A DNA stretch of 22,150 nt from a virus (IMGVR_UViG_3300022707_004751:1-22150), one strand, 5' to 3'; numbered from the stretch's first letter, positions 3,008 to 21,223 are shown. Notes: generated by a model from the sequence alone, not told the origin. Numbers and translations: made by a program.

Positions 3008-3033
3008 AACAAGAACAAAAGGAACCCGTAGAA

Positions 3034-3513
3034 ATGGCTAATTTAGCACTATTCGCAATTGACGAAACAAAAGAGAACGATGGAATCTGGTTTAACTTCG
3101 GTGAAGATATTGAAATCCTCGTTGCCTCGATCGAAAAGAAAGCTTTCCAAAAAGCTCGCCGTAAAGCTGAGAATAAAAAAGCTGCCACTAAAGGTCGCAG
3201 AGCCAGTAAGAATGAGCAGAATAAAACTGGTCGAGAAATCATTGTTGAGATTGCTGCTGATATTGCTCAACACATTTGCCTGGGTTGGAAAAATATTGAA
3301 CTTCCAATTGATAAAGAAGGTAATATCAACCTGGAGCAGAAAAAGAATAAAGAATTTTTGAATCCAGTAGTTGAGTTTCCATACAATAAAGCGAATGCTG
3401 AGATCTTATTATCTGATTATGCTTTCCGTGAATTGACTTTATTCATCTATGAAAAAGCTGCTGAAGTCGAAGATTTCTATCTTGAAGTTGCGGAGACTGA
3501 CGCAAAGGAATAA
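3034..3513 (+). CDS. Tail assembly chaperone (G-like product)
   Basis: I choose ATG 3034, which follows AAAAGGA. The frame is open from 2947, but the upstream stretch overlaps the zinc-ribbon gene and looks non-coding. The 159-aa product begins with a strand-rich part (GIWFNFGEDIEILVASIEKK), has a Lys/Arg-rich middle (residues 40-70), and then the typical chaperone core: IAADIAQHICLGWKNIELPIDKEGNI, followed by AEILLSDYAFRELTLFIYEKAAEVEDF. This matches the first member of tail chaperone pairs, which keep the tape measure soluble and recruit tail tube protein. It lies just upstream of the tape measure, as expected. Its last codons (GCA AAG GAA TAA) overlap an open -1 frame. Confidence 0.7.
   Translation: MANLALFAIDETKENDGIWFNFGEDIEILVASIEKKAFQKARRKAENKKAATKGRRASKNEQNKTGREIIVEIAADIAQHICLGWKNIELPIDKEGNINLEQKKNKEFLNPVVEFPYNKANAEILLSDYAFRELTLFIYEKAAEVEDFYLEVAETDAKE
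3501..3513 (+). other. Probable programmed -1 frameshift site in chaperone genes
   Basis: The frame of the 3034 gene reads GAC GCA AAG GAA TAA. The -1 frame has a stop at 3498-3500 and then stays open from 3501 to 3905, so a shift must happen within these 13 bases. The A-AAG tetranucleotide at 3504-3507 lets tRNA-Lys slip back onto AAA, and the zero-frame stop comes two codons later. The full heptamer (CGCAAAG) is not a canonical X-XXY-YYZ site. The expected fusion would read ...TDAK-GITAVLQWWLENSG and join the two chaperone domains, as in lambda gpG-gpGT. Confidence 0.6.
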
Positions 3514-3590: not shown

Positions 3591-3905
3591 ATGGAAAAGC
3601 ATGGCATTGTCATGCCAGAATCAGATGCATTTCTTGAACCCCTTTACCATTTAGATCTACATCATATTTGGATTGCATTTACCCAATTATCCCGATCCCG
3701 CCCACAATATTATGGTGGTGCGGGTCCGATTATTTGTTCAGAAATCCTTTCTTATTTTGTGCTTCACGGTTATAATGATCCAGAAGAAAACCGTTTTTTC
3801 TTGAAAATGATCCATGAATTAGATATTGTTTTTATGAAGTATGAGAGCAATCAACAAGATAAGAATCTCAAAAAAGCTGAATTGGATAATAAAATAAATG
3901 GCTAA
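3591..3905 (+). CDS. Tail assembly chaperone, second (T-like) domain
   Basis: The first ATG of this frame is at 3591, giving 104 aa behind a weak AAGAG. The frame is open from 3501, and the upstream codons also look coding (TAVLQWWLENSGKVDELKRYE), so the natural product is probably the C-terminal part of a -1 frameshift fusion with the 3034 gene. Residues about 20-85 (LHHIWIAFTQLSRSRP, GAGPIICSEILSYF, ENRFFLKMIHELD) match the pattern of second-frame tail chaperone domains. These load the major tail protein onto the tape measure-chaperone complex. The gene overlaps the tape measure gene by eight bases. Independent initiation at 3591 cannot be excluded. Confidence 0.65.
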   Translation: MEKHGIVMPESDAFLEPLYHLDLHHIWIAFTQLSRSRPQYYGGAGPIICSEILSYFVLHGYNDPEENRFFLKMIHELDIVFMKYESNQQDKNLKKAELDNKING

Positions 3906-6900
3906 TCTCGCACTTGTAATAGATCCAGCACCAACGCTTTCCGGTGGAACTAAAGTATTAAGAATGTTGGATAAGATTGAGAGAAAGGCTTTAAGAGTTT
4001 CTAATGCAATGGCCAAGATGCTCAGACCTTCCACTGCATCGATGAAAGCTTTTGAAACAAGATTAACCCGGGTAGAAAATAAATTTAAGAAGTTTGGCAG
4101 GACTCAGGATAAAGTTCAAAAGAACATTACAAAGAGATCAAACACTTCAGCCCGATCTATTGGGAATTTGATCAAAGGGTTCACAAATTTATTTAATGTT
4201 GGTGGTCGTGCAGGTCTGGCCGTAGGTGAGGGAGCAGCTGCAATTGGAGCTTTGGGAACTACTGCTGCTGTTACTGGCGGGTTGATTGTTGGTTTGGTTG
4301 CTGGTTTGATTACTCTGATCGCTGCCGTAATTGCTGTTGGTCTAACCATAAAGGCTATTGCCAAAACCATAAAATTTGTTATCATTGAAACAATTGCCTG
4401 GGAAAAAGAACTGATCAACGTTGCCAAAACTGCCAATTTGACTGATAAAGGTATCGAAACCTTGACCAAAGGGATCCAAGGAATGCTTGCGGTCTTGCCA
4501 GTAACCAGAACTGAATTGCTGGGAATTGCTGAAGTAGCAGGACAAATGGGAATCCAAGGTGTTAAGAACATTCTGAAATTTACTCAAGCGATCGCTCAAT
4601 TGTCACTGACAAGTAATATTGTTGGCCGTGAAGGTGCAACTGCAATGGCTCGTTTCCTAAAAGTTACTAATACCGGTATACGATTTGTTGAAGAACTTGC
4701 CTCTGTAATTACATCATTGGGTAATAATTATGCTGCAACAGAGAGTGAAATTCTGAACATGACAACTCAACTGTCTCAGAACGTAGCAGCCTTTGATATT
4801 TCAGCTGAGAAGATCCTTTCTTTAAGTGCAGTCATGAAATCACTGGGAATTGAAACAGAAGTGGGATCCTCAGTTGTTGGCCGAGCATTCAATGAGATTG
4901 CCAATAGCATTGACAAAGGTGGGGAATCACTTGAGAGTCTTAGAAAAATAACCAGGCTTTCTTTTGATGAACTAAAACGTTTGGATAGTTTCGATATCTT
5001 TATCAAGACATTGGAAGGATTACGCCGAGTCCAGGAAGAAGGTGGAAACGTATCTGAGACTTTGAGATCAATCGGTCTTGAAGGTGTTCGGAATCGTAAA
5101 GTGCTTCTTACCCTGGCCAACAATACTGATCAGGTGGCTGATGCCCTTGCACTTGCCAATGCTGAAATGAAAGATACGAATGCACTATTTGATGAAGTAG
5201 CAAGACGTAGCCAAACTGCTGATGCCTCAATAACTTTATTCCAGAACTCTCTTACTTCTGCAGCTGCAGCATTCCTTGAAACCACTGGTGTATCCGCTGC
5301 ATTCTTTGATGAAATGACAAATCTGGTTCATGGGTTCCAGACCAGTACACTTGAAAGTGAGAAGTTCCAAACTGAGTTGAGAATCGTGGCAGGGAATATG
5401 GTCAAGGCAATTAAGATCACTGCAATTCTGGCTGATATCTTTTTAACGTTTGCCGTTGAAGCTGCTGGCGTTGCTTTTGAAGTGGGTAAAGTCGCTTTGA
5501 CAATAATGTCTCTGGATGCTCAATCTGATCCTCTTATACGCAAATTGGTATTGGCCGGTAAACGGATGGATGGTTTTGGAATGTCCGTAACTGAAACCGG
5601 CAAGAAACTGGCTTCAATTGCTGAGATACTTAAAGAAGATCCTTTGAAAGTCTTTGGTGATCCAAAAACCAAAAAAGAACTCAAAGCACAAAATGAAGAA
5701 CTTCGCAGATTGAATAATGAGATCAGAGAATTTGCCCAAGCGAGTGATAATGCAACCAGGGCAATATTACGTCAGGAAAATGCACAACGTAGATTATCTA
5801 CTCTGAGACAAGAGAAACGCCAGGTATTCAGGGATCCTACTTCTGCCGTTCTTGCTGCTGCTGCTGGTGAAACTGATACCGAAGGAAAAGTAAGAGAAGC
5901 TGCTAAAAAGCTCAGAGAAATAATTACTGAAGAATTTTTCTTGAGTGGCAAGGATCTTCGAAGCGGTGACGTTATAAAAGAGATTGATAATATGGTGAAG
6001 GAAGGTCGTGTTCGTATTGAAACATTATTCGATCTTAAAAACATTGCCAAAGCGTTCCGCAAAAATATTGATAACATGGCTAAAGATGTTCAGAAGTTTT
6101 TTGACAGTGTTGAGAAATCCCGTGGTAAAACTCTTATAAAAATTGAAAGCATATTTGGAAGCAAAGCCGAAGCTGAAGCAAGTGCCAATCTCAAGAAGTT
6201 TTCAGACAATTTAGTGAATGCTCGTAAAGCAGAAATAGAATTGATCAAGCTGGCCAAAGATGCTTTCAATGATCAAGCCAAAGCTATCAAAGAATCTAAT
6301 GATCTCATGAAATCTGGTGGAGCAGAATTACAAACAAGGCTCACTTCAAATCAACAAGCCTTTGAAAGTTTGAGAGCAGAAATAGAAATTGGAAGCAAGG
6401 TATTGATCTCAAGGATCTCTGATACTGATGCCAGTGCCAAGAGTGCGGAAAACTTAACCAAGGCAATAGAAAATATTACTTCTGCTGCTACTGCTAATCG
6501 TGCGATCGAAGCACTTGGCGGTGACTTTGGTGAAGAAAATCAGAACCAGGTAAAAGATTTAATTACCCAACTTACAGATCTTGGTAATATTTCTCGAACA
6601 ATCCAAAGTGAATTGGCCACTCAAGATAGTGTGACTAAAATGCTCACTGCCAATGAAAACGAATTAGCCATCATTACAGAACAATTAAATAAAACACTCA
6701 AGACAAATACTCAGTTCACGGATGAAAATGTCGCAGCATTAATGAAACGTGCCAAAGAAACCTTGAATGCCCAAATAGCGTTGACCAAATTAAGTGATAC
6801 TGCAGAAGCATTCAAAAAGGCAACTGAAGATTCAACAAAGCCTTTAGAGCAGTCCATTAAAACCTTGAATGAAGAAATACTCAAGTTATCCGGAACAGGT

Positions 6901-7653
6901 TCTTTTGATCTCATTGAAAAACAAGCAGCTGCATCATTGGAATCAATTCAATTGCATCTTGAAGATGTGAGAACAGCAGCCGAAGCAGCACTTGGAAGTG
7001 CCACGACTGAAGAAGCTCTAAAAATTACAGCAGCATTAAAACAATATGAAGCTGCTGCCGAAGCTGCATCGATGAAAACAATTCTGCTGAAAGATCGAAC
7101 AATCGAACTTACCAAAGAATTTGAACGATTAAGATTGGTAAAAGAAATTGCTGATACGCTTGGCGAGAGTTTTGCCAATGCATTCACTGATATCATTACT
7201 GGTACCAAATCGGTTTCTGAAGCTTTCCGTGACATGGCAAATGATATTCTTAAAGAAGTAATCAGGATAACAGTTACACGGCCACTGGCTCAAGCAATAT
7301 CTGGTTCTCTTGTTGGTGCTTTCGGTGCTGCTGGTGCTGCAAGTATTGGTGGTGGTTCTGTTGGTGCGAGTAGTTCTGCTGTTGGATTTGCAAATGGTGG
7401 GATAGTTGATAGTCCAACCTTTATGGGATCCTCTGGTGGTCGTCCTGTTGTTGCTGGCGAAGCTGGTGCAGAAGCAGTCATTCCATTGACAAGAGTTGGT
7501 GGAAAACTTGGAATATCCGGAAAAGATATTAATAATAGTACTATCAATAATAAAAATGTAACTGTGAATATGACTGTCATTGCTAACGACTCTGATTCAT
7601 TCAGACGTTCAGAACGACAAGTCGCTTCCGGAATAAAAAGGGCAATTGGATAA
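3898..7653 (+). CDS. Tail tape measure protein
   Basis: This 1251-aa protein starts at ATG 3898, overlapping the chaperone gene. The N-terminus is basic and helical. Residues about 121-162 form a long hydrophobic Gly/Ala/Ile segment of the kind thought to insert into the host membrane. Residues about 170-330 resemble the phage minor tail/tape measure domain (ELLGIAEVAGQMGIQGV). Residues about 590-640 and 700-1000 are coiled-coil-rich. The C-terminus has the lambda-type ending FANGGIVDSPTFM...GEAGAEAVIPLTR (about 1164-1200) and a final SDSFRRSERQVASGIKRAIG that resembles GTA gp11. At roughly 0.15 nm per residue (established for siphoviruses) this predicts a tail near 190 nm, far longer than GTA tails. 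The position directly after the chaperones agrees. Confidence 0.92.
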   Translation: MANLALVIDPAPTLSGGTKVLRMLDKIERKALRVSNAMAKMLRPSTASMKAFETRLTRVENKFKKFGRTQDKVQKNITKRSNTSARSIGNLIKGFTNLFNVGGRAGLAVGEGAAAIGALGTTAAVTGGLIVGLVAGLITLIAAVIAVGLTIKAIAKTIKFVIIETIAWEKELINVAKTANLTDKGIETLTKGIQGMLAVLPVTRTELLGIAEVAGQMGIQGVKNILKFTQAIAQLSLTSNIVGREGATAMARFLKVTNTGIRFVEELASVITSLGNNYAATESEILNMTTQLSQNVAAFDISAEKILSLSAVMKSLGIETEVGSSVVGRAFNEIANSIDKGGESLESLRKITRLSFDELKRLDSFDIFIKTLEGLRRVQEEGGNVSETLRSIGLEGVRNRKVLLTLANNTDQVADALALANAEMKDTNALFDEVARRSQTADASITLFQNSLTSAAAAFLETTGVSAAFFDEMTNLVHGFQTSTLESEKFQTELRIVAGNMVKAIKITAILADIFLTFAVEAAGVAFEVGKVALTIMSLDAQSDPLIRKLVLAGKRMDGFGMSVTETGKKLASIAEILKEDPLKVFGDPKTKKELKAQNEELRRLNNEIREFAQASDNATRAILRQENAQRRLSTLRQEKRQVFRDPTSAVLAAAAGETDTEGKVREAAKKLREIITEEFFLSGKDLRSGDVIKEIDNMVKEGRVRIETLFDLKNIAKAFRKNIDNMAKDVQKFFDSVEKSRGKTLIKIESIFGSKAEAEASANLKKFSDNLVNARKAEIELIKLAKDAFNDQAKAIKESNDLMKSGGAELQTRLTSNQQAFESLRAEIEIGSKVLISRISDTDASAKSAENLTKAIENITSAATANRAIEALGGDFGEENQNQVKDLITQLTDLGNISRTIQSELATQDSVTKMLTANENELAIITEQLNKTLKTNTQFTDENVAALMKRAKETLNAQIALTKLSDTAEAFKKATEDSTKPLEQSIKTLNEEILKLSGTGSFDLIEKQAAASLESIQLHLEDVRTAAEAALGSATTEEALKITAALKQYEAAAEAASMKTILLKDRTIELTKEFERLRLVKEIADTLGESFANAFTDIITGTKSVSEAFRDMANDILKEVIRITVTRPLAQAISGSLVGAFGAAGAASIGGGSVGASSSAVGFANGGIVDSPTFMGSSGGRPVVAGEAGAEAVIPLTRVGGKLGISGKDINNSTINNKNVTVNMTVIANDSDSFRRSERQVASGIKRAIG

Positions 7654-8628
7654 ATGAGCGTTGATTTAATAGCACTACCAAGGGAACTGAGTTATGGAAC
7701 AATCGGTGGCCCTGGTTATAATACTCAAATAGTTACAACTGATTCTGGTAGAGAAACACGGATCCAGCGGTGGGAAAATGCTCGTCGGCAATATGATCTG
7801 AAATACTTGGTTCGAAGTTATGAAGATTTACTTACCATAAGAAACTTTTTTCTCGCACGTAGAGGTGCCTTTAATGGTTTTCTCTTTATCGACTTTGCCG
7901 ATGGCAATACAACTCCAAGTGCTGCTCTGTCTGAATTAAATCCCAATACTGTTTTGAGTGCTACTGATCAAGATTTTGGTGTGGGTGATGGAACTACTCA
8001 ACAATTTACATTAAGAAGAAAGTATGTTGATTCTGAATTATTCGAAGTAGAAAGAATTATAAAATATCCTGTTGATGGTACTGTTTTAGTGGCCATCAAT
8101 GGAACCCCGACAACTGATTTCACCGTTACTCTTGACACTGGTGTTATTACTTTTGATACTGCACCGATATTAAATGCTGTGCTCACTTGGGGTGGTGAAT
8201 ATTTCACACCGATACGCTTTCAAGAAGGTACAGACGAATGGATGCAATTATCTGAGGATTCATTTGAATCAGCAAGTTTACCAAGTATTAATTGTATCGA
8301 AATTATTGATGAAGTGCCAAGTTCTGAAAGATTCTTTTATGGTGGTGGAACATATATCAATCTCACTGCTGCCATTAGTCTTGGTTTCGCATTTAGAGCG
8401 ATCACACTTTTACCTGATGCCGATGGACACCAAGTATTTTTACCTGAAACATCTCTTTTGACCGGTGGTGGTCCATACCTTACATTAATCAATGACAGTG
8501 CTACTTTTAATTTTTTACTCATCAATACTGATGGAACACAATTAGCCACGGTCGAAGCAGGAACAGGGGTTATTCTTTGGCTTGCAGAAACAAGCACCGG
8601 TGCATTAAACTGGATAACGATTGGATAG
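7654..8628 (+). CDS. DUF2460 distal tail protein (GTA gp12-like) with extra C-terminal domain
   Basis: ATG 7654 directly follows the tape measure stop, with AAAAAGGG as ribosome binding site. Residues 1-220 are a typical DUF2460/TIGR02217 protein: LPRELSYGTIGGPGYNTQIVTT near the start, RRQYDLKYLVRSYEDLLTIRNFFLARRGAFNGFLFIDFAD, then VDGTVLVAINGTPTTDF and LTWGGEYFTPIRF. In GTAs this protein forms the distal tail ring linking tube and hub. The family is usually about 210 aa. Here a roughly 100-residue beta-rich module follows (ending GGGPYLTLINDSA...DGTQLATVEAGTGVILW...LNWITIG). A similar module occurs early in the next, giant gene. The extension may anchor that giant protein or bind glycans (inference). 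Confidence 0.88.
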   Translation: MSVDLIALPRELSYGTIGGPGYNTQIVTTDSGRETRIQRWENARRQYDLKYLVRSYEDLLTIRNFFLARRGAFNGFLFIDFADGNTTPSAALSELNPNTVLSATDQDFGVGDGTTQQFTLRRKYVDSELFEVERIIKYPVDGTVLVAINGTPTTDFTVTLDTGVITFDTAPILNAVLTWGGEYFTPIRFQEGTDEWMQLSEDSFESASLPSINCIEIIDEVPSSERFFYGGGTYINLTAAISLGFAFRAITLLPDADGHQVFLPETSLLTGGGPYLTLINDSATFNFLLINTDGTQLATVEAGTGVILWLAETSTGALNWITIG

Positions 8629-8637
8629 TATTTTGAT

Positions 8638-11600
8638 ATGGCAGATCTTGAAACTTTTTATGGTGGAAGCCAGTACCTTTCAATATTACTTGCTGGAATT
8701 ACTCTAAGCAGGGGAAACAAACGATTACTTGATACCGTAATCCCTTTCAATGAACATTTAAGCGTTCTTAATGAAGATGGAACTATCACCGAAACTAGCT
8801 CTGGATTTACGATTGCTTGCGATGGTGGTGCTGGCCTAGATTGTACTTTACAAAGTTCCTTCAATAACAGTTTCAAAGATATCGAATGGCGGGCATCATT
8901 TGCTGGAACTATTGGTGCTTCTGCTGCTGGTGCATCAAATTATAATGCGTGGGGAATAGAACTTGAAGATGCCAGTGGTAATATTTTTGCGATACGCCTT
9001 TGGGATAATGATAATGGAACAAAAAGACAAATAATTGCTGATAAAGGTGATCCACTCACAAACGAAATTGCTTCAGTAAACGAAGATCCCAATAATGTAA
9101 CATTACTTATTCGCAGAGAGTCCGGAGTATTCAGAGCGTTTTTTAATATTGGACCAGGTGGCTTTCAGGAACTTGCATTCAATGACACCATTAAAGGTGA
9201 AATAGTTTCCTTCAGAATAAAATCAAGATCTGAATCAAATGCAGGTAATCCACCAGGCACCGTAACTACAAGTAATATCTTTCTTACGTGCGATGGAAAT
9301 GCAATCGAAGTAAATATGTACGATCCTACTAATTTACCAACCGGTGAACCATATCACTTGATATTAAACGGTGGACCGGGATCACGTATTATAAAAGACC
9401 AATTGGGTGCTACAGTTGCGACACTGGATGGACGCGAGGGCGTTATCATGGCCATCGTTGATGATGCAGGAACTAATCGCTGGGTAGGAAAAAGAGTCAA
9501 TGTTGTTGGCGAACGAGATTCATTGATAATTCAATTTACTGAGATCCCTCTTTTGATCAGTGAAGGAATACCATTCACTATGACATTTTGTGTCTTTGAT
9601 TCGAAAGGTGCAGTATCAAGTATCTATGATGGTGCCAACTCTCAATTAATTCTTAAATTCACATTCAGTAATGATGAATTGACTGTTGATGATACAATAG
9701 TAGATGGTTGTTCAACCAATGTCATCGATGATGAAACTTTGCCTTATGTTCAATTGGCAGAAACAGAGATATCAACTGTTTTTGGTTTCTGTTGGAGTGA
9801 AGGATTTGGCTCTGATCCTACAGCCGATCAAATCTTTCCTTTGGAAGATGACTTCAGTGGAAATGAGAGAAATTCTGGTGTAGTTGGAGATGCAGATTGG
9901 AACTTCCGCTGGAAACAGCAACAAGGAATTCAATCCAATGCTACTATTGTCGCAGGTATATTAAATATAAACCCTACAGGCACTTGGCGTATCCGTATCG
10001 AGCGAGGGCGTCTTTGGGGTGCTTATCAAGTTGATTGGGGTGCTTACTCAAGAAATGGTGCAGTAGAATTAAGATGGATTTTCGAAACCCCAAATCATGA
10101 GGTCATAATATTTGGTGGATCTGATACTCTAAGAATCGTATATGGCGGTCCAAATCAGGATCAAGGCACTGGATTCGGATCTGGAAATAGTATATTCCTA
10201 CGAAGAAATGGTGCGGATTTAAGAGAGACATTCAGAAATGGTTCACCTTTTGCATTTACTAGTACAAACTCGGGAGATGTACCTGATATTGATATGCAGA
10301 CTGTTGGAACAGGCGCAATTAACACATCTGAAGGTCTAACCATCAAGCATACTACTCACTTAGGAAGTTTAGTTGATTATATAGTACCAGACCCGAAACG
10401 TTGGTTAATGACAGAAAGCGGTGGTCGTGATTATATTATACCTACTGAAACTTTATTAACTCAAGAAATTCAAAATATCGTTGATGATGCCATAGTTAAA
10501 TTGGCTTTAGACTTTCAGAATGATGCAGATCCAGACGCTGAAATAGGATATCGCGAAGATGGTGTGGGCGGTTTAGAAATATTTGGTGGTTTTGGTGCTG
10601 GTGCAACACCAACAGAAATATTCTCGGAATCACGCACAGTTATGGAAGAATTGATATTAGAACGTAATGATTTTACATTTTCAGATTTTGGTGGATCAGT
10701 AGGATTTGATTCACAAAAATCAATCAGTGTTGGTGATGGAATATTTACTGAAAGATGGAATATAGACCAATATTTTGATGGGAGTGGCGATGTCAGTAGC
10801 ATAGTTTCTGGAAAGTTAAGAATTCCAACAAATGCTGCTGGTGGAAATGTTGGTCACAGAGTGGGACATAATTATTCAAGTGTGGGAAATACAGATTTTA
10901 ATATCTCCGTTGATATTGATGTTATTCAATGGGCTAATCTTCCTGGTACAACTTTCGGTGCTGCTTATTTTTGGCTCGTTATTGGTGGGAATAATTATAT
11001 CTTACAACTTGAACGTGGTAACACAGGATTTGATCAAAATTTCCGTGTAGAAATGAATACTATTGTTACTGAAGCTGCCAGTGCAACAACCGATGATAGT
11101 GGAAATTTAAGATTCCAAAGAGTCGGTACAATCTTAACTGCCTTTTATCAAGGAGCAAGTGATTTAAATGAAATACAATTGGCTACCTCTAATGTAGGAA
11201 CCGGCAATTTATCATTTGTATATTTAGCGTCAAGAACATTGGCTCCAAGTGCCACGCAATCTCAGACTGTTGATTATGATAATTTTATTTTTAATGTTTC
11301 TGCTTCTGAATTTACAGAAAAACGTGTGTTATTCAAAGAAAAATTAGCTAGTGAAAGTCAAGCTACATTACTTGCAGCAAGAAAATTATCTGATATTGGT
11401 CTTTCAAATACTGTTCACGAATCACGGCTACGATTGAATGCCAGCACAACTTTTGTACAAAATGCAAATTTATTCAAAGACTTTGATGGTGTTATAGATT
11501 CTGATACATGGTTATTTTCAACTAAGATTAATTCTCATAATTTCAATGGTGCTGGTGCGACACGATTTGTTAAATATGATAATGCACAAATAGAATCACC

Positions 11601-14600
11601 ATTAGGGACACCGTATTGCGAAATCGATTCTCAAGGCATAACAATAACGGGACCAAATCTTCAAGCTCAAGGATTTTTACCAGATCAAAATCTTAGCACT
11701 GCAATTGAATTAATTCCTGTTCGCATTTGGCGTGAACTTTGGCAGGGGCTAATCATAAATTCTGTTGACAATTTCTTTTATCGCTGGAAAGAAAGTGGTA
11801 CATCTATCGGTCCGGTGCAAAATGATGATGGCTTTTTGACATTACAATCAGAAAATAGTGATCAAGATTCATTGGCTAATCAGTCACCAGATTACTTGAC
11901 TGAAGATTTTGCAATTATCTGTGGTGTCGCTAATAATTGGCAACTGTTAAATGATCCTGCTGCAAATCTTACTGTTGATGCAAAAATGCAGTTGGCATCT
12001 TCTCTTGAATTAGCCAGAGAACGTTTTCTTAATAGCGGAAATACTTGGAACATTCTTTCGTTTAATGAATCCGGATTATCACTTCCAAAATTTCTGGATG
12101 AATTCTTTTTCAATGATGAATCACGATTCATGGTTCTTAGATTTTCTGATGTGACATATATCTTTGGTGAAGGTTCATTGATGGCAATTTCAAACACTTT
12201 AACCAATCAAAGTATCACCAATGCAAGTCTTACTTTTATCAATACTGCTGCTGGTTTATTGGAAGGAAAGTTTGGAGCATACACACCAATAAGAACAGCA
12301 CAATTCACTGCCCTAATTATGTGGGATATTCCAGCCGGTGTTTATCCTATGGAGTTGATGAACTTCTTTATTGATACCCTGAATAATTTCAATACAGAAA
12401 CATTGATACTTTCAGCAGTAGATTTCGAAGGTGAAATAGTTCTACTCAATGGACTGCAATTAATTGAATTTGTGATTGGTGACAATACGGAATATAAAGG
12501 CTGGGTAGATGGTTTATTTGTTACTGAATTTGAGAGAGATACTATTGTAAGCAATCAAGGATCTGTTGACGAACTTCTTTTCAATCAATTTGATTTAGCA
12601 TTACCGGCCATGGTTTATTCTACTCTTTTCAGAAGGATTGTTTGGAATACAAAAAGACTTGCTCCTGGTGTTGATTTTACACAGACCGTAACTATCAATG
12701 CATTCTCTTTATTGGCAAATAATCAAGAAGCATATTTGCTTGTTACTGATTCCAAAAAGATTTCAACTGGTAATATTATCAATCGTATTGGTATTCGTTT
12801 TGCCGGTGGTGTTCTGGAAGCATTTTCTGATGACAATGGAGTGATAACGACTTCTGCATTTGGTGGAACTGAAATTGATTTGAAGATCGACAAAACTGGA
12901 TCCACAATTTCATTAGAGATTGATACCGGTGGTGGATTTTCAGCACTTGATACTTCAACTGCACTGGATGATAAGCCACTTTATTTTGCATTCGTAATCA
13001 CAAACACAAATGCGGCCAGTGCAATGTCTGCTAATATCGATACCTTGAAACTGATCAATAAAAGTCTTGCTTCAGGAATTGGTATCAACACTGATATAAG
13101 ACTTGATTTTGATATGGATAAAGTTTTAAGCTACGAAATATATCAAGCTGAAACAACGGATCCAGCACCATTTATTACTGTTACTGCAACTGTTCCTTTC
13201 AAAGAAATTATCAATAGTACTGTTCGCACTGTGATGTTAGAACCAAATGAATTTTATAGTTGGACTGAAGCCGATCGAGCAGTTTACAATGATGCTTCAT
13301 TTACTCAGGCTTCACCAGGTGACACTATTCAAGAACTGCATTCATTGTCAGTCGATAGTGGATTCCCTTATGATGTGAAACCGTTATGGAGAAAAGATTT
13401 TGATGTTGTCAAGTATGCTCAAGCAGCAGCAGGTAAACGTCCTGATTTTGTTGAATTTATTTTTAACGGAAAAGACACTATTGATTTTGATCCTTCAGGA
13501 AACGATGCACTTGAAGATACCGGATCACAGAATGACAGATTCTTACATGATGGAAATGATTTCTGGATTGGTGCCATATTCCAAAGTCTTGGGACAGGAA
13601 CAGAGCAAACGATTTATGATAACAGTCAATTTCTTAATACCAATGTTGGTGTTTCTATTTATCTTGATGGAACTGCCAAGACAATAAAGTTTAGAATTCG
13701 GAATGGTTCAACATCATTCGATCATGATACACCGGCTGGTGCATACGATGAAACAATTGCCAACTTATTGGAGATTGAGCAAAAAGGCATAACCAATATA
13801 ATTAAAATAAATGGCGTTGTTGTCTCGACTAAAGATATAACTTCATTTACACCGGCAACTGGCAGTTCATCTTTCAATCTTACTATTGGCAATAAAGGTT
13901 CTTCTGGTACTGGTTCAGCATTTGAAGGTTTCTTGCCAGTACTGATTATTTCTCGTAGAAGAATCGATTCTGATAAAGCAGAATACTTAAGAAATTATAT
14001 GTGGAAACAGACCGGCGTTTTATCCACTTGGATAACTTCACAGACACCAATTTATAATAAAGAAACTTTTAATATCGTTTTAAGATTTCCACAAATACTC
14101 TCTGGCAGTGTTGTGCTTCTGCAAGCATTTGATGTGAATAATAATTTGCTTAAAGTTCTCGATGTAACTGAACAAAGTTTTAACATTCCTTTCTTTAAGT
14201 TTTCAGATAATTTCAATACCATAGATGTACTTAATGCAAATATTTGGACTGATGAATCAGACGGTGGAGTGGCTGCACCATTTATTTTTAATGACCTTGT
14301 TTTAAGACAATCTTTGGTAAGTCAGAACTTAATTTCGAAGACTGTTTCAACTGCACCCGATCGCGCTGGAATATTTTATCTTGAAGCATTAAATACTGTA
14401 ACCTTTCCAGTGACACCAGCAGACGATGTAAGATCAATGCTGGTTGTCGAATTTGGTGCAACTGTTTTCCGTATGGGATATTTGAAAGACTCTGGTGGAA
14501 GCTTGTTCTTTAAGATTACTGAAGTTGGTGTAGGTGATATTATCTCTATAGCTATTTCTGATTTTATAAATACACCATTAATTATAAAACGTGATGAAGA

Positions 14601-15519
14601 AGAAAATTTGGAATTCATATTCAATAGCGTTACTGAACATACAATTGCATCTAGTACCGCATTACTGACAAAGTGGTATGTTGAAACTGAAGGTGATACA
14701 TCAAATAATATAACGACTGATTGGGATGAAATCAGATACAAAGATACTTCTGCAGGAACAGATATTACTGAAGTTCAAGATGTAAATGAGAATATCGATA
14801 TTCTAATTGATTATCAACAGGATGATGACTTTCTGGAAATACTTTCCACGATCCAAGAAACAGAAATAACAAATAGAACTAGGGCATTGATCTTATTTTA
14901 TTCAGAACGTTTTATTGGCAGTACCATAAACACAAGACGATTGGTAATTGCCAATGCCGGTAATGGTGCCTTTACACAAGATGAAATTGGAACATGGTCA
15001 TGGACTGGTAGTAATGGAACTGATACAAGTGAATTAAAAACGACTGTTACTGATGCAGAACTTGATGGTGATTTCGATATAGAATTCAAAGTCAATATAA
15101 AAGCCTTTCCAACAGGAACAGCAGAAGGTTCTACTTTGGAATTCAAAATCTCTGGTGCTACTGATGATGCACATTTAAGATTTTATAATGTTGATAGTCA
15201 TGCGACTTTTGGCACCTTTGCCGGTATTAAGATATTTGATAACTTAGCTGCACCAGGAAATGAAACGATCACATTAGAGTTCGAAGTACTTGGTGAATAT
15301 ACAGTAAAACTTTCAAGACGATCTGGCGTGTGTAGCTGGTCATTTAAGACTGGTGTTTTTCCATACCAATTCATCATCGATGCAGCAGATCTTACAACAG
15401 AAACACTTGTTGAAATTATTAGAACAACATCACTTCTTAATTCGTCAAGTGCTATTGATATCGATATTGAATTTACAGATATCAATAAAGAAAAGAATGG
15501 AGAATTTTTCTTGATATGA
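8638..15519 (+). CDS. Giant multi-domain beta-sandwich tail protein
   Basis: This 2293-aa protein starts at ATG 8638, nine bases after the DUF2460 stop with no strong ribosome binding site, so translational coupling is likely. It is almost entirely beta-rich and looks like a string of concanavalin/LamG-like sandwiches. Recognisable units begin with a D(N)F...W strand and end in a DYDNF-type strand, at residues about 37-215, 700-888, 946-1100, 1346-1476, 1856-2038 and 2100-2290. A clear LamG-type domain lies at about 1600-1790 (FNGKDTIDFD ... GFLPVLIISRRRIDSDKAEYLRNYM). Residues 228-288 repeat the extra module of the preceding protein. There is no signal peptide or enzyme motif. It is probably a tail-tip adhesin or side fibre that binds surface glycans. 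It ends ATGA-overlapped with the DUF2163 gene. Confidence 0.8.
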   Translation: MADLETFYGGSQYLSILLAGITLSRGNKRLLDTVIPFNEHLSVLNEDGTITETSSGFTIACDGGAGLDCTLQSSFNNSFKDIEWRASFAGTIGASAAGASNYNAWGIELEDASGNIFAIRLWDNDNGTKRQIIADKGDPLTNEIASVNEDPNNVTLLIRRESGVFRAFFNIGPGGFQELAFNDTIKGEIVSFRIKSRSESNAGNPPGTVTTSNIFLTCDGNAIEVNMYDPTNLPTGEPYHLILNGGPGSRIIKDQLGATVATLDGREGVIMAIVDDAGTNRWVGKRVNVVGERDSLIIQFTEIPLLISEGIPFTMTFCVFDSKGAVSSIYDGANSQLILKFTFSNDELTVDDTIVDGCSTNVIDDETLPYVQLAETEISTVFGFCWSEGFGSDPTADQIFPLEDDFSGNERNSGVVGDADWNFRWKQQQGIQSNATIVAGILNINPTGTWRIRIERGRLWGAYQVDWGAYSRNGAVELRWIFETPNHEVIIFGGSDTLRIVYGGPNQDQGTGFGSGNSIFLRRNGADLRETFRNGSPFAFTSTNSGDVPDIDMQTVGTGAINTSEGLTIKHTTHLGSLVDYIVPDPKRWLMTESGGRDYIIPTETLLTQEIQNIVDDAIVKLALDFQNDADPDAEIGYREDGVGGLEIFGGFGAGATPTEIFSESRTVMEELILERNDFTFSDFGGSVGFDSQKSISVGDGIFTERWNIDQYFDGSGDVSSIVSGKLRIPTNAAGGNVGHRVGHNYSSVGNTDFNISVDIDVIQWANLPGTTFGAAYFWLVIGGNNYILQLERGNTGFDQNFRVEMNTIVTEAASATTDDSGNLRFQRVGTILTAFYQGASDLNEIQLATSNVGTGNLSFVYLASRTLAPSATQSQTVDYDNFIFNVSASEFTEKRVLFKEKLASESQATLLAARKLSDIGLSNTVHESRLRLNASTTFVQNANLFKDFDGVIDSDTWLFSTKINSHNFNGAGATRFVKYDNAQIESPLGTPYCEIDSQGITITGPNLQAQGFLPDQNLSTAIELIPVRIWRELWQGLIINSVDNFFYRWKESGTSIGPVQNDDGFLTLQSENSDQDSLANQSPDYLTEDFAIICGVANNWQLLNDPAANLTVDAKMQLASSLELARERFLNSGNTWNILSFNESGLSLPKFLDEFFFNDESRFMVLRFSDVTYIFGEGSLMAISNTLTNQSITNASLTFINTAAGLLEGKFGAYTPIRTAQFTALIMWDIPAGVYPMELMNFFIDTLNNFNTETLILSAVDFEGEIVLLNGLQLIEFVIGDNTEYKGWVDGLFVTEFERDTIVSNQGSVDELLFNQFDLALPAMVYSTLFRRIVWNTKRLAPGVDFTQTVTINAFSLLANNQEAYLLVTDSKKISTGNIINRIGIRFAGGVLEAFSDDNGVITTSAFGGTEIDLKIDKTGSTISLEIDTGGGFSALDTSTALDDKPLYFAFVITNTNAASAMSANIDTLKLINKSLASGIGINTDIRLDFDMDKVLSYEIYQAETTDPAPFITVTATVPFKEIINSTVRTVMLEPNEFYSWTEADRAVYNDASFTQASPGDTIQELHSLSVDSGFPYDVKPLWRKDFDVVKYAQAAAGKRPDFVEFIFNGKDTIDFDPSGNDALEDTGSQNDRFLHDGNDFWIGAIFQSLGTGTEQTIYDNSQFLNTNVGVSIYLDGTAKTIKFRIRNGSTSFDHDTPAGAYDETIANLLEIEQKGITNIIKINGVVVSTKDITSFTPATGSSSFNLTIGNKGSSGTGSAFEGFLPVLIISRRRIDSDKAEYLRNYMWKQTGVLSTWITSQTPIYNKETFNIVLRFPQILSGSVVLLQAFDVNNNLLKVLDVTEQSFNIPFFKFSDNFNTIDVLNANIWTDESDGGVAAPFIFNDLVLRQSLVSQNLISKTVSTAPDRAGIFYLEALNTVTFPVTPADDVRSMLVVEFGATVFRMGYLKDSGGSLFFKITEVGVGDIISIAISDFINTPLIIKRDEEENLEFIFNSVTEHTIASSTALLTKWYVETEGDTSNNITTDWDEIRYKDTSAGTDITEVQDVNENIDILIDYQQDDDFLEILSTIQETEITNRTRALILFYSERFIGSTINTRRLVIANAGNGAFTQDEIGTWSWTGSNGTDTSELKTTVTDAELDGDFDIEFKVNIKAFPTGTAEGSTLEFKISGATDDAHLRFYNVDSHATFGTFAGIKIFDNLAAPGNETITLEFEVLGEYTVKLSRRSGVCSWSFKTGVFPYQFIIDAADLTTETLVEIIRTTSLLNSSSAIDIDIEFTDINKEKNGEFFLI

Positions 15520-16319
15520 GCAATTTACGCAGAGCAAAATGCTGGTTGATAACTAGACGGGATGGTGTTGAAATTGCATCTACTGATCACGATGTCTCAA
15601 TACTTTTTCAAGGCAGGACTTATATTCCAAGAACGATTTCATCTTCAGCAATTGAGAAACAGGCTTTAGTACCAAATAATTTTGATATCCATGCTGCATT
15701 TGGTGATATATCTTATGATGATTTATTGGCAGGTAAATATTTCAATGCACTTGTAGACGAATTCAAAGTAGATTGGCTTCATCCACTTGAAGCCCTCGAT
15801 GCAGTAAGATTCATTATCAATTCATTCCAAGTAAATGGAGAAGTGTTTACGGCATCAATGGTTGGTGTTCAATCAAAGATAGTTGGTAATGCAGCCAGAT
15901 TCTATACATCACTTTGCCCGTGGGATTTGTACGATCCAAACACTTGCCAAGCCAATCCTGATGAATATAGAGTTGATGGTTTTATAACTGAAATTGTAGA
16001 GGCTGGCAGATCAATCAATATCAACATAACTGGATTTGAAGAAAACTATTTTAAGTATGGAACTCTAAAATGGATCACGGGGGATAACGTTGGACTTCTC
16101 GATCGAAACATAAAAACTTCATCATTCGATGGCTTTATTGAATTTCAATTAAAAACTGGTCTTGGTATGCAAGTGGGAGATACTTTTGAACTTTTACCAG
16201 GCTGTGATAAATCTCAATGTCACTGCTTACTTAAATTTAACAATGAACTTAATTATGGTGGCTTCCCTTATATTGAAGGAACAGACCGAATGATACAAAC
16301 ACCAGATGGTAAAGCGTAA
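15516..16319 (+). CDS. DUF2163 tail hub protein (GTA gp13-like)
   Basis: This 267-aa protein starts in the ATGA overlap with the giant gene. It shows the DUF2163 pattern from end to end: RAKCWLITRRDGVEIASTDHD at the start, a middle with a cysteine pair (C134, C144 in LCPWDLYDPNTC), and the C-terminal signature GCDKSQCHCLLKFNNELNYGGFPYIEGTD (C230, C235, C237). In the GTA hub protein and in lambda gpL (established), conserved cysteines in this region hold an iron-sulfur cluster, and four suitable cysteines are present here. The protein should form the hub ring between the DUF2460 ring and the central tip protein. Its length is near the family norm. It overlaps the peptidase gene by 14 bases. 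Confidence 0.88.
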   Translation: MSNLRRAKCWLITRRDGVEIASTDHDVSILFQGRTYIPRTISSSAIEKQALVPNNFDIHAAFGDISYDDLLAGKYFNALVDEFKVDWLHPLEALDAVRFIINSFQVNGEVFTASMVGVQSKIVGNAARFYTSLCPWDLYDPNTCQANPDEYRVDGFITEIVEAGRSININITGFEENYFKYGTLKWITGDNVGLLDRNIKTSSFDGFIEFQLKTGLGMQVGDTFELLPGCDKSQCHCLLKFNNELNYGGFPYIEGTDRMIQTPDGKA

Positions 16320-16716
16320 AGACATAGTTGCGAAAGCAAGATCATGGATAGGAATTGAATATCGATTTAGAGGCAGATCGCGTCAAGGAATCGATTGTTC
16401 TGGTCTTGTCGTCGGAGTGGCCAAAGACTTAAACCTGTTCGATTATGACTTCACTGACTACGTATTAAATGATCCTCACATAATACAACAACAAATTCTT
16501 AAATCAGGCATGTTTGAGGTTCCAGTTCATGATATGTTGCCTGGCGATGTCCTCAATATTGCAATTAAGAATAATCCAATTCATTTGGCTATCTTGGCAA
16601 ATGACGTTAGAATGATTCATACTAATCAATCAGTAAATATGGTCGTAGAGTGTTCAATACCTCATAAACGCGATAGAATTTTAAGGGTTTTTAGATACCC
16701 AAATGTAGAGGATTAA
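16306..16716 (+). CDS. NlpC/P60 tail peptidase (GTA gp14-like)
   Basis: This 136-aa protein has the NlpC/P60 cysteine peptidase fold. The catalytic cysteine is Cys31 in GIDCSGLV, the first histidine is His93 in NPIHLAIL, and the polar partner is probably His105 in RMIHTNQS. LPGDVL (about 78-83) is the usual strand before the histidine. Such tail peptidases cut cross-links in peptidoglycan so the tail can pass the cell wall. The length and the place between hub and tip genes match GTA gp14. It overlaps the hub gene by 14 bases and has no strong ribosome binding site, so its translation probably depends on the upstream gene. Confidence 0.9.
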   Translation: MVKRKDIVAKARSWIGIEYRFRGRSRQGIDCSGLVVGVAKDLNLFDYDFTDYVLNDPHIIQQQILKSGMFEVPVHDMLPGDVLNIAIKNNPIHLAILANDVRMIHTNQSVNMVVECSIPHKRDRILRVFRYPNVED

Positions 16717-16718
16717 TT

Positions 16719-19700
16719 ATGGCAACTTTACTTTTAACAGCATTAGCAACTGGCGCAACAGCCGGTGCTGCACCATTGGTTGTAGGTTTGGCAGTTGGAG
16801 CAGCGAGCGTTGCAGGTAGTTTCATAGATAATAAGTTCTTATTCCCTGCTGGTAAACCACCGACACAAACTGGTAATCGCATTAAAGAACTAAATGCCAT
16901 GACTGCCAATGAAGGTGAATTCATTTACTTTTGTGCCGGTCCTCAATGTCGTGTACCAGGCCAATTGATATGGGCTGGAGCTTTGAAAGAACGTGATGAA
17001 CTGACAGTTATCAAAACTGGTGGTGGCTTAAAAGGTGGATCAGCAAAACGTATAGACTTCTTTTATTTCAATAGTTTGGCCGTGGCAATCGCTGAAGGAC
17101 AAATAAATGAGATTAAGAAGATCTTTGCCAATGGGAAAATAATATTTGATGGTCTTGGCGGTGCTTCTATCGGTTCCGGACTTAGTGGATTTGTTGATAC
17201 TTTTGAGACTTTAGATAATTTCACCTTTAAATCTTCCGGTGATTATTTTGGTATTCGTGAATTTCCATTCAATGAAGATGACAATATTAGAAGTGTTGAT
17301 AAGTCTCTTGTTCCTGATCCCAATAGCGCAAAACTTATCAATGGCAATATCAAATTTCTTTTTGGTATAACAAGAAGATCAAGTATCGATCAAATTACAG
17401 GAACTGGTCAGGTAGTTCTAAGAAATAAGATTGATGGAAATGTTCTTGCAGGTAGAGTTGATGGTTTAGAAGATAAATCTTTACGTTTTCAAATAAATGT
17501 AAAAAGCTCAACCTTTCGATCAGAAACATTACAAGTGACTGATTCTTTTACATCATCTAATTTTTTCAACAGAGAACCATCACGCCAAATATTTGCTACA
17601 CCGAGAACCGAACACACTTTCTTTGGCATTCGTGTTATCAGTTCAAATAGTTCTGTTGAATTAAAAATGAATAACAATAAAGATGGTAAAATTTTAAGTC
17701 AATCTCCGTTTAGATTCTTTGGTAAATATGCAAGATCAACTCGTTTTGTTTATGAGCAAATTGGTGGAACTTATATTGTCTTTGATGGCGATGAAGATAA
17801 TCCTGTTTTTGTTCCAGGCACAATAAAAAGTACTTGCCGTATGCGTATTGAGATTGAAAACAATGTGGTAAAATGTTTTATTGATGATAAAGAAGTCGCA
17901 AGCAATCCGTGGGTAAATGGGACTGTTCAAAAATTAGGATTCTTTACAGACGTTCCTGCAATAGCTGAAGTTCCGAGTGCTGAAAAAGGAAATAATGAAG
18001 ATTTGATTCAGGCATTGTTCGACAATTTTATCTTGCAGGTTCCTTTGGGTGGTGGCCAAGAAATTCCAGAGGGATTAGAAGATATCCGTTATAATTCACT
18101 TACACTTTATGATGGTGGATTTACACAATTACAAGATCCAGTAATAGAGTCGGAAGTAGTTACCCAACAAAGCAAAGCTGGCATACTTGGAAGATTTTTT
18201 GATAATAGAAATTTTTCTGATCAAGTTGGAACCCGTGTTGATGATGTATTTAATTTTAGCTGGACAAAAAGTAAACCAATTCCTGAAATCACCGATAGAA
18301 CTAATTTTTCTGCTGAATGGGATTTGATATTCGTTCCTACTGAATCTTCACCAAATTATCGCTTTCAGATTGGTGCCGATGATTATTTCTTGTTTACAAT
18401 TACCGATGATAATGGTCATCAAATAGTAATGAAAAAAACTGAAAAAGCACGTTCGTTTGATGATTACTTTTCTTACAATAACGATGGTGGTGCTCATAAT
18501 TTGGGTGGTGATGGTCCAATCAGTTCTTTAGCATTCACTAAAGGCAAAAGATATAGAATGAAAATTCAATATGCCAATTACGCTGGTAATGCAAAAATCT
18601 TTGTCAGATTCTTTCTTGACTCAACTAGTCCATTTGAACTTTTATCGAAAAGCACAGTTGTTTTGTCGGGTTCTGATGATTGTGTATTTACACCGACATT
18701 CAGAGGCACATCATATTGCTCTATCGAATTATTGGCACTTTATGATTTTGCCAATTCTATTCCACAGATTTCAATCATAGTTGAAGCCGATTCATCATTA
18801 ACAGTTGCTGAATTACTTACAAAGATTTTATTACGGGCTGGATTGGAAGAAACTGATATCGATGTCACAAGCGTTCCTGACATTGATGTACCAGGCTTTA
18901 TGGTATCCGGAGCAACAACTACTTTAGATTTAATTAATTCCGTAATGGTATATGCAAATTTGAATGTCCAGCAATCAGGGGAATTGATAAGATTCTTTGC
19001 CAATGGCAGTGAAAGAACCTTTAATGTAGATTCAGATTTCTTAGCAGCGAGGGCTGGTAGTGGTGCTGGATTTGAAACAGCATTGACTATTTCAGAAGTA
19101 GATAATCATGGTCTACCAAATGATGTCGTTATCAACTTTTATGATCTTGAGAGAGATCTTCAACCAGGATCCGTTCAATTTAGAAGATTGCCAATATTTA
19201 CAGAAGCAGTGGAAAAAATTGATATGCCATTTGCCATGACCAGAGAACAAGCATTGGTTATAGCTGAACGTATTCTTTGGGGATTTTGGGCTGATATTCG
19301 TTTGGCCAATTTTAAGTTGCCAGAAGATTTCTTTTTCATAGGTCAGGGTGATTCCGTAATCTTAACTTTCAGAGGATTTACCCATAAAATTAAAATCGTT
19401 AATGCAACTTATGGCCATAATGGTGTGATTGATTTTCAGGGAGTGATCCAAGAAGTTGAGATCAACAGACAATTTACAACTGAGAATCAAGGTGCCGGTA
19501 TATCAGTGGGACAATTCGTTTACGTTCCTGGTGCTCTTATTACTCACATACTGAATCTACCACCAATCTTAGGAAACAATGTTGATCTTCCGGATGCTGG
19601 TTATTTATTTGCTTCAGCACTAATTGATACAGATGCTACTTGGAAAGGTGCATCAATCACAGAGAGTGGTGATGATTCCCTATTCTTAGAATCACAGCAA

Positions 19701-20456
19701 GTTTCTATTGAAGGATTTATAGGACAATCATTAAACGTTTTAGAAGATGGACCGGTCGATATTGTTGATGAAGGTAATTTTGTAGATATTGAACTTTTGA
19801 ATGGAGCTTTGGCAAGTATTACACAAGCTCAATTATTTAATGAATTAAATCTTGCGGTACTCGGTGATGAAATTATTGCCTTTCGTGATGTAGAAGAATT
19901 AAACCCGAATCAATTTCGACTTACTGGTCTTATTCGTGGATTGAGAGATACTGTTGATCATACTGCTGATCATGCGATTGATGAAAGATTTATCCTTATC
20001 GGTTCTGATATCACTCAATTTGCTGCTGTTCCAAATGTGGTGATTAATCAATCAAGATTCTGGAAAGGTTTAAGCTTGGGTCAAACCGATGGCGATGTAA
20101 CCAGCTTCCAAGAGGATATTACAGCAGAAAATTTAGTTCCATTCAGACCAGTTACTATTGCTGGATCCCGTGATGGCTCAAACAATTTAACAATCACTTG
20201 GGATAGACAGGATAGGGCAAGTTTCTCTTTATTTGTCATTCCACCACCTTTAAGCGAACAGTCACTTGAATTCGAAATTGATTTTCTCGATACTGGTGTC
20301 GTTGTAAGAACTAAAACCGTAACAGCAGAAACAGCTTCATATACAGCAGCGGAACAGACCACTGATGGTCTTACGCCTGGTGATCCTGTAGATGTTAGAG
20401 TATATCAAATAAGCGCGATCGTAGGACGCGGAAATGAAGGGAGCGAAACAGTATGA
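16719..20456 (+). CDS. Central tail-tip/host-specificity protein (GTA gp15-like) with PA14 insertion
   Basis: ATG 16719 follows GAGG two bases after the peptidase stop. The 1245-aa product has the gp15 frame: an Ala/Gly-rich hydrophobic N-terminus and strand-rich first 140 residues (CRVPGQLIWAGALKE, SLAVAIAEGQINEIKKIFANGKIIF), a phage-tail_3-type middle at about 688-910 (LPNDVVINFYDLERDLQPGS; AERILWGFWADIRLANFKLP), a late NLAVLGDEIIAFRDVE...RLTGLIRG block near 1044-1075, and an FN3-like C-terminus. Two additions interrupt it: a concanavalin-like domain at about 290-440 ending ALFDNFIL, and a PA14 domain at about 488-645 (GILGRFFDNRNFS ... YRFQIGADDYFLF). Both types bind carbohydrate in other proteins. 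It should trimerise as the tip spike. Its stop overlaps the next start. Confidence 0.88.
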   Translation: MATLLLTALATGATAGAAPLVVGLAVGAASVAGSFIDNKFLFPAGKPPTQTGNRIKELNAMTANEGEFIYFCAGPQCRVPGQLIWAGALKERDELTVIKTGGGLKGGSAKRIDFFYFNSLAVAIAEGQINEIKKIFANGKIIFDGLGGASIGSGLSGFVDTFETLDNFTFKSSGDYFGIREFPFNEDDNIRSVDKSLVPDPNSAKLINGNIKFLFGITRRSSIDQITGTGQVVLRNKIDGNVLAGRVDGLEDKSLRFQINVKSSTFRSETLQVTDSFTSSNFFNREPSRQIFATPRTEHTFFGIRVISSNSSVELKMNNNKDGKILSQSPFRFFGKYARSTRFVYEQIGGTYIVFDGDEDNPVFVPGTIKSTCRMRIEIENNVVKCFIDDKEVASNPWVNGTVQKLGFFTDVPAIAEVPSAEKGNNEDLIQALFDNFILQVPLGGGQEIPEGLEDIRYNSLTLYDGGFTQLQDPVIESEVVTQQSKAGILGRFFDNRNFSDQVGTRVDDVFNFSWTKSKPIPEITDRTNFSAEWDLIFVPTESSPNYRFQIGADDYFLFTITDDNGHQIVMKKTEKARSFDDYFSYNNDGGAHNLGGDGPISSLAFTKGKRYRMKIQYANYAGNAKIFVRFFLDSTSPFELLSKSTVVLSGSDDCVFTPTFRGTSYCSIELLALYDFANSIPQISIIVEADSSLTVAELLTKILLRAGLEETDIDVTSVPDIDVPGFMVSGATTTLDLINSVMVYANLNVQQSGELIRFFANGSERTFNVDSDFLAARAGSGAGFETALTISEVDNHGLPNDVVINFYDLERDLQPGSVQFRRLPIFTEAVEKIDMPFAMTREQALVIAERILWGFWADIRLANFKLPEDFFFIGQGDSVILTFRGFTHKIKIVNATYGHNGVIDFQGVIQEVEINRQFTTENQGAGISVGQFVYVPGALITHILNLPPILGNNVDLPDAGYLFASALIDTDATWKGASITESGDDSLFLESQQVSIEGFIGQSLNVLEDGPVDIVDEGNFVDIELLNGALASITQAQLFNELNLAVLGDEIIAFRDVEELNPNQFRLTGLIRGLRDTVDHTADHAIDERFILIGSDITQFAAVPNVVINQSRFWKGLSLGQTDGDVTSFQEDITAENLVPFRPVTIAGSRDGSNNLTITWDRQDRASFSLFVIPPPLSEQSLEFEIDFLDTGVVVRTKTVTAETASYTAAEQTTDGLTPGDPVDVRVYQISAIVGRGNEGSETV

Positions 20457-21223
20457 GTTTAACACCATTAGAAGTTTTTGCACAGAGCCAAAACAATGCC
20501 AACATTTTGAATAATACCAATTTTGATGTTGTGGCTGCAGAACAACGTCGTGAAGTAATTGATCAGGTCAATGCAGAACCTACATTGATTCTTACTGATT
20601 CAAGAAATTTCTATATTGTCGGTGATTCCCCTACTGGAACAGTACCGTGGACAGACAACCCAAAGAAATTAGCATTGTGGCGTGGATCCGCTTGGTTCTT
20701 TTGGACACCGGCCAGAAATCAGATTTATTCAAAACCCGATGGTACGGAATTTCAATGGGATGGTACTGATTGGGTAACTCCTGGCGGTGGTGGTGGTGGT
20801 TCACAACGTTCTGGATTAATAACAATGTCCGGTGATCAAAGTACTGATATTGATGTTGGTGATCCAATTCAATTTGATCAACAAGAATCAGGCGGTGATT
20901 TAGATTTTGATTCAGTCAATCATAGAATTACTTTACGCGAAGGAATTAAAGTAAGATTGGAAGGTGTAGTATTTTTTACTTTTTCTGGTTCAAGTGGTAG
21001 AGGTGATTGCAAGTTTTTTGATTTTACCAATACTGTTGAAATTGGGTTAAGATCGATTGCGTATTCGATGAACGCATCACAAAATGAACAGAGCCAGCCA
21101 ATTGCTATTGTTCATATCGTTCCATCAACTGATATAGTAGTAGAACTGAGAATTGTGGCCGATTCGGTCATAACTTCAGTGGATGCTACATATACTTATA
21201 TTTCTTGTCAGGAAATATCATAA
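20453..21223 (+). CDS. Tail fibre-like protein with C1q-like head
   Basis: This 256-aa protein starts in an ATGA overlap behind AGGGAG. Residues about 45-110 resemble the DUF2793-type tail motif (ALWRGSAWFFWTPARNQIYSKPDG, then FQWDGTDWVTP). A six-Gly linker follows (111-116). Residues about 120-256 look like a C1q/TNF-like jelly roll (ITLREGIKVRLEGVVFFTF, ending VDATYTYISCQEI). C1q-like heads form trimers and often act as receptor-binding tips. As the last gene of the tail operon, right before a terminator, it is placed like a fibre gene. The C1q call rests on strand pattern only. The receptor is unknown. Confidence 0.65.
   Translation: MSLTPLEVFAQSQNNANILNNTNFDVVAAEQRREVIDQVNAEPTLILTDSRNFYIVGDSPTGTVPWTDNPKKLALWRGSAWFFWTPARNQIYSKPDGTEFQWDGTDWVTPGGGGGGSQRSGLITMSGDQSTDIDVGDPIQFDQQESGGDLDFDSVNHRITLREGIKVRLEGVVFFTFSGSSGRGDCKFFDFTNTVEIGLRSIAYSMNASQNEQSQPIAIVHIVPSTDIVVELRIVADSVITSVDATYTYISCQEIS

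Follow-up and report, generated by a model that had tools for sequence, protein, structure and literature searches.

We analyzed the 22,150-bp virus contig IMGVR_UViG_3300022707_004751, referred to in its full length as the window, with a focus on a 2293-aa protein (the giant) encoded between the genes for the distal tail protein (Dit) and the baseplate hub. The giant is probably a Dit-anchored tail-tip adhesin. This conclusion builds on a domain, named the FYGG domain in this analysis, which the giant shares with the C-terminal extension of the neighbouring Dit and with proteins encoded at the same junction in related phages, here defined as the group of FYGG-anchored Dit/hub-junction proteins. 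The most fitting reading of the giant is that of an extreme case in a host-recognition slot that is anchored and swappable. The features on which the argument draws are the following, where AF2 denotes AlphaFold2, pLDDT its per-residue confidence score and HMM a hidden Markov model.

7654-8628, + strand: Dit, whole gene
7654-8292, + strand: Dit core (DUF2460, Rcc01695 family; PF09343 at 1.5e-50; TIGR02217)
8293-8622, + strand: FYGG domain forming the C-terminal extension of the Dit (residues 214-322; E 2.8e-25 with an HMM from which the window was excluded)
8638-15519, + strand: giant tail-tip protein, 2293 aa (open reading frame (ORF) and translation)
8647-8742, + strand: first half of the FYGG anchor, giant residues 4-35 (alignment A6; pLDDT mostly about 70-90; weak alone in the HMM)
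8743-9291, + strand: predicted ConA-like sandwich within the anchor, giant residues 36-218 (Foldseek; pLDDT 39-72)
9292-9507, + strand: second half of the FYGG anchor, giant residues 219-290 (HMM match over 219-284; pLDDT 87-96 for 221-290)
9508-15516, + strand: remaining giant, residues 291-2293, a presumed projecting recognition arm
15516-16319, + strand: baseplate hub (DUF2163; PF09931, PF09356; TIGR02218)

The FYGG domain of the Dit and the giant

The C-terminal extension of the Dit (approximately 110 aa) is homologous to the first 110 aa of the inserts, that is, of the proteins encoded between Dit and hub, and follows the pattern '..FFYGG...LP....GGPYF.I.N....W'. Alignment A1, a mixed DUF2460 set, proved too divergent to be of use in a pattern search. 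The domain had no match in Pfam, PHROGs, NCBIfam or the PDB sequences. Two HMMs from which the window was excluded detected it in the giant, with E-values of 9.5e-12 and 3.5e-11. The latter HMM was built from Dit C-termini only and run with the database size set to 1000, and its best stretch covered residues 219-284, a segment that also matched the Dit of locus L138 in a phmmer search at approximately 1e-6.

Alignment A6 showed that the anchor of the giant is split, with residues 4-35 (approximately) and 219-290 matching the FYGG domain and about 185 aa inserted between them. For residues 21-30 and 221-290 the AF2 model had a pLDDT close to 90, as compared to 68-74 for residues 1-20. A similar-sized insertion (approximately 170 aa) was observed in the same loop in L007 and L104, but not in L088 and L089, although the region behind the anchor (the cargo) of the latter is homologous to that of L007. 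On the Dit tree, L088-L090 are weakly supported neighbours of the window, so the loop insertion may have arisen more than once.

The N-terminal model of the giant matched PL7 alginate lyases, galectins and the C-terminal domains of GH43 xylosidases in Foldseek, with low query TM-scores of about 0.3 that reflect a composite and partly uncertain model. One lectin-type sandwich at residues 36-218 is thus reasonably supported by a model of low-to-medium confidence in this region. The sequence-only reading had described the whole protein as repeated concanavalin/LamG-like units, of which only this single domain was recovered. Internal repeats were found neither by self-BLAST nor by tiled phmmer, seven candidate units compared by HMM-HMM alignment showed no significant similarity, and Pfam searches with ten pieces of the giant gave nothing above cut-off. 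HMM-HMM comparison of tiles of the giant with the sandwich domains of its relatives yielded no significant match, and the alignments looked forced from end to end and were not relied on. A single-sequence AF2 model of residues 1590-2293 was rich in strands but had a pLDDT of 35.6, and fold searches were not based on it. The proposed series of at least six lectin sandwiches was therefore not borne out and remains a guess from sequence texture. A beta-helix tailspike was also considered for the giant, and was rejected for want of sequence support.

The FYGG domain could instead bind saccharides on both the Dit and the insert, adding avidity, with the giant attached via another region. The carbohydrate-binding modules (CBMs) of evolved Dits promote adsorption (PMC7291167, PMC10688798), and inserts consisting of the FYGG domain only would suit small binding proteins. 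However, no fold match for the domain alone pointed to sugar binding, and its place at the start of inserts of all sizes, constant while the cargo is exchanged, would be left unexplained. We consider this alternative unlikely.

FYGG-like domains were also observed in L179, L180 and L182, short loci from genomes in the Planctomycetota search, where they occur in other ORFs (260-631 aa) at a distance from any Dit detected there.

Occupancy of the Dit/hub junction

The giant is encoded by a real gene, in one uninterrupted frame of 2293 aa on the same strand as its neighbours. Its junctions are as tight as first described, with a 9-base gap after the Dit stop codon and a 4-base overlap (ATGA) with the next gene. 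A chance ORF was rejected because the length is not random at approximately 36% GC and the N-terminus has homologues, and a frameshifted gene was rejected because the single frame lacks internal stops. The flanking genes were confirmed as Dit and hub by Pfam and NCBIfam, and the Dit also by its family profile, which matched the PDB entries 6tba (RcGTA) at 1.5e-76 and 8gtc (R4C) at 3.7e-54, over residues 1-212 only. The membership of the giant in the tail-tip operon was likewise borne out.

We surveyed 196 non-redundant loci with both Dit and hub in view. The loci were gathered by profile search for relatives of the window Dit, and the fractions given here are thus not population frequencies. 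Dit and hub were adjacent, defined as a gap under 240 bp, in 94 of the 196 loci and had something between them in 102, so the view that the DUF2460 and DUF2163 genes are normally neighbours holds only in part. An extra C-terminal domain on the Dit was present in 57 loci (extended Dits), and an insert was found in every one of these (57/57, as compared to 54/54 in an earlier, narrower set), with a Dit-hub distance of at least 343 bp. The insertion site itself is therefore not unusual, contrary to the first impression. The remaining 139 loci have short Dits, with 94 adjacent pairs and 45 inserts. The FYGG domain was identified at the start of 46 of the 57 inserts behind extended Dits at E<1e-3, and weakly in six more; behind short Dits it was found in 0/45, even at E<10.

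The inserts in extended-Dit loci range from approximately 108 aa to the 2293 aa of the window, where the gap of 6,890 bp is the largest and the giant the longest single ORF among the surveyed loci. The next longest inserts have 1080 aa (L166), 1041 aa (L126) and 931 aa (L148). The claim of exceptional size was thus upheld, and the window sets the upper insert size so far, at about twice the next one. The full-length giant had no match in Pfam, PHROG, NCBIfam or tblastn searches of phages and plasmids, and searches of viral contigs for close relatives, using the giant, its neighbour proteins and two giant segments, returned nothing. Annotated homologues at this site in many known phages would have spoken against the first interpretation, and this objection holds by half. 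Inserts with this anchor are indeed present in many uncultivated phages; the sole annotated one found is a 'kelch protein' (MW202657 and a twin record), and none resembles giant residues 291-2293. In MW202657, the closest annotated phage, another ORF accompanies the kelch gene between Dit and hub.

A tree built from 194 Dit cores placed all 57 extended Dits in one supported set of 59 rows, together with two short ones on long branches; two changes of the label are required. Although the lineages have diverged deeply and the cargo has been exchanged, the Dit extension and the insert have been kept together, which argues for a functional link. Among the short-Dit relatives the state of the junction changes approximately 18 times on the tree, suggesting that insertions are also readily tolerated there. 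The giant could then be a passenger at this point, or a depolymerase or other enzyme, and have no relation to a Dit-borne anchor. The lysis cassettes and frequent state changes at the junction of short-Dit relatives would fit a passenger, and an enzyme would fit the resemblance of the modelled sandwich to PL7 alginate lyases among others. However, the giant shares the FYGG domain with the Dit and with the inserts of its relatives, whereas the lysis-cassette inserts lack it. We rejected a passenger gene on these grounds and hold this whole alternative to be very improbable.

The inserts behind short Dits were read in 11 of the 45 cases, and most consist of a holin-like protein and a muramidase, i.e. 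a lysis cassette. In the short-Dit prophages L196, L206, L210, L219, L243 and others, the tail operon appears to enclose a lysis cassette, sometimes with an Rz1-like lipoprotein. Tetraselmis viridis virus S20 (L003) has an unrelated insert of 345 aa after its short Dit.

Cargo of the inserts and proposed role of the giant

Similarity between cargo regions is undetectable in most cases, and several of the regions match recognition folds. The Gp38 adhesin domain of T-even phages was identified by Pfam in L121 (3.3e-19) and also in L108 and L113, and the PHROG label for such inserts is 'tail fiber protein; host specificity'. Kelch repeats were found in L087 and others, a right-handed beta-helix in L111 (4.8e-13) and a Laminin_G_3 domain in L019 (1.2e-7). 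The inserts of L166, L126, L148, L007, L104, L019, L108, L121, L111 and MW202657 occupy the same junction as the giant and have the same N-terminal FYGG domain, which is weak or visible as a motif only in L166, L148 and L121. They differ from the giant in their length of approximately 300-1080 aa and in their cargo, none of which resembles giant residues 291-2293. A constant anchor with exchanged recognition modules resembles an adhesin slot. The host-recognition arm first proposed for the giant thus stands in so far as a host-binding role is likely, given the Gp38, kelch, beta-helix and LamG cargo behind the same anchor in its relatives.

In the proposed arrangement, the giant would dock on the Dit ring, with the FYGG domain of the insert packing against those of the Dit, beneath the hexamer and close to where Dit and hub meet; this FYGG-FYGG contact is the least certain step. 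The remaining approximately 2000 residues would project outward and contact glycans or proteins on the host surface, before the hub and the megatron protein are engaged. The C-terminus of the Dit touches the hub and the megatron in RcGTA (PMC7296036), and accessory adhesion proteins dock on the Dit in RcGTA (TspA; PMC13420450) and in TP901-1 (BppU; PMC7291167).

Several points weigh against this reading. The placement of the giant in the virion and the FYGG-FYGG contact are both deduced from the sequence. Giant residues 291-2293 had no homologue in the Pfam searches with pieces, in the viral-contig searches or among the inserts of relatives. Some inserts consist of the anchor alone and would carry no separate adhesin. 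The training set of the FYGG HMM included some of the inserts that were scored. Finally, the extended Dits are essentially one clade, and the 57/57 association hence amounts to approximately one retained event rather than 57 independent ones.

The anchor-only inserts (nearly FYGG-only, 108-118 aa, in L164, L119 and L106) bear on another explanation, namely that the insert serves above all as a structural spacer, or as an adaptor ring linking Dit and hub, and that the C-terminal region of the giant is a decoration of little importance for recognition. Such short versions would suffice for a spacer, and an added ring is geometrically possible since Dit and hub touch in RcGTA. On the other hand, a large number of cargo regions have matches to recognition folds, the T-even Gp38 adhesin among them, and the diversity of cargo between phages is high, as expected for host recognition. 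A mere spacer therefore appears quite improbable, and the Dit-anchored adhesin is retained.

A broader proposal is put forward tentatively, with slightly less than even confidence. The tail tips of RcGTA-type siphophages may share a hitherto undescribed plug-and-socket system, in which the Dit ring bears an FYGG domain and the adhesin encoded downstream begins with one. Modules ranging from nothing to 2000 residues could be exchanged while the connector is kept, also in Planctomycetota phages, and the window would hold the record length, possibly as a long receptor-capturing arm of multiple sandwiches. If so, the FYGG domain would serve as a sequence handle for host-recognition proteins in many unannotated phages, including those of Planctomycetota, since whatever follows it at the Dit/hub junction is a likely adhesin. 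It would also represent a further mode of attaching adhesins to the Dit ring, distinct from BppU and from evolved Dits.

Known systems, other genes and hosts

Gene calls and matches to Pfam, PHROG and NCBIfam profiles identified a siphovirus-type tail operon in the window, which comprises the following further genes.

2947-3513 and 3591-3905: tail assembly chaperones
3898-7653, + strand: tape measure protein (phrog_13339 at 4.8e-55)
16306-16716, + strand: NlpC/P60 tail peptidase, gp14-like (PF00877 at 1.9e-9)
16719-20456, + strand: megatron-type baseplate protein with PA14 (Rcc01698_C, Phage-tail_3, PA14)
20453-21223, + strand: fibre-like protein (PHROG matches including tail fiber at 6.7e-5)

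By these profile matches the tail tip is of the RcGTA siphophage type, with an Rcc01695-family Dit, an Rcc01696-type hub, an NlpC/P60 peptidase and a megatron-type protein in order. The gene set and order are those of the baseplates of RcGTA and roseophage R4C (Dit Rcc01695, hub Rcc01696, gp14 peptidase and megatron Rcc01698). However, RcGTA-type Dits end at approximately 210 aa and lack the FYGG domain, and no gene lies between Dit and hub in RcGTA as described, where the window has the giant. The megatron-type protein of the window, unlike that of RcGTA, carries a PA14 domain and scores below the curated cut-off of the NCBIfam profile GTA_megatron. Because of this score and the presence of a terminase, the tail is read as a phage tail, and the status of a gene transfer agent (GTA) is not claimed. 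The PA14 domain covers residues 486-626, and a TIM-barrel match was not among the Pfam matches listed for this protein. Immediately after the tail tip genes comes the terminase large subunit (21303-22148, running off the window end), a gene order that is uncommon in the late operons of phages.

BppU of TP901-1 works alike, as an accessory protein on the Dit ring that holds the receptor-binding parts (PMC7291167). No sequence link to BppU was found, and the anchor of the giant type differs in being homologous to a Dit-borne domain and in forming one chain with the recognition part. Evolved Dits of lactococcal and related phages likewise carry an extra domain linked to adsorption (PMC10688798). 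Their CBM is inserted in loops of the galectin domain, whereas the window Dit is extended C-terminally after residue 213 and paired with a separate downstream gene, and it is thus not an evolved Dit in this sense. TspA of RcGTA is an accessory recognition protein that has a beta-sandwich N-terminal domain and contacts the Dit (PMC13420450); compared by description, it differs from the giant in being encoded outside the virion cluster and in being a trimeric depolymerase that uses the OB domain of the Dit. The Gp38 domain of T-even phages is itself the cargo in L108, L121 and L113, but Pfam did not find it (PF05268) in the giant, either whole or in ten pieces.

The extended-Dit lineage occurs in Planctomycetota genomes, an assignment that does not extend to the window's own host. 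Among four matches in genome contigs, two metagenome-assembled genomes (MAGs) of Planctomycetota and one of an unclassified bacterium had an extended Dit, and a Neomarinimicrobiota MAG had a short one. In L185, from the Planctomycetota search, an extended Dit, a 444-aa insert with a weak FYGG match (2.6e-4) and a hub were located at 9758-13576 on a complete-looking single contig of 6.9 Mb.

Additional domains were also seen on the hub itself. The DUF2163 hub ORF of Tetraselmis viridis virus S20 (L003, 6065-7822) has an N-terminal extension of approximately 300 aa with a LamG-like look. In Erythrobacter phage XM05 (L006, 7565-8959) and in OL955261 the DUF2163 hub contains an insertion of approximately 200 aa, annotated as F5/8 type C in OL955261, which would represent another route to a tail-tip binding domain.

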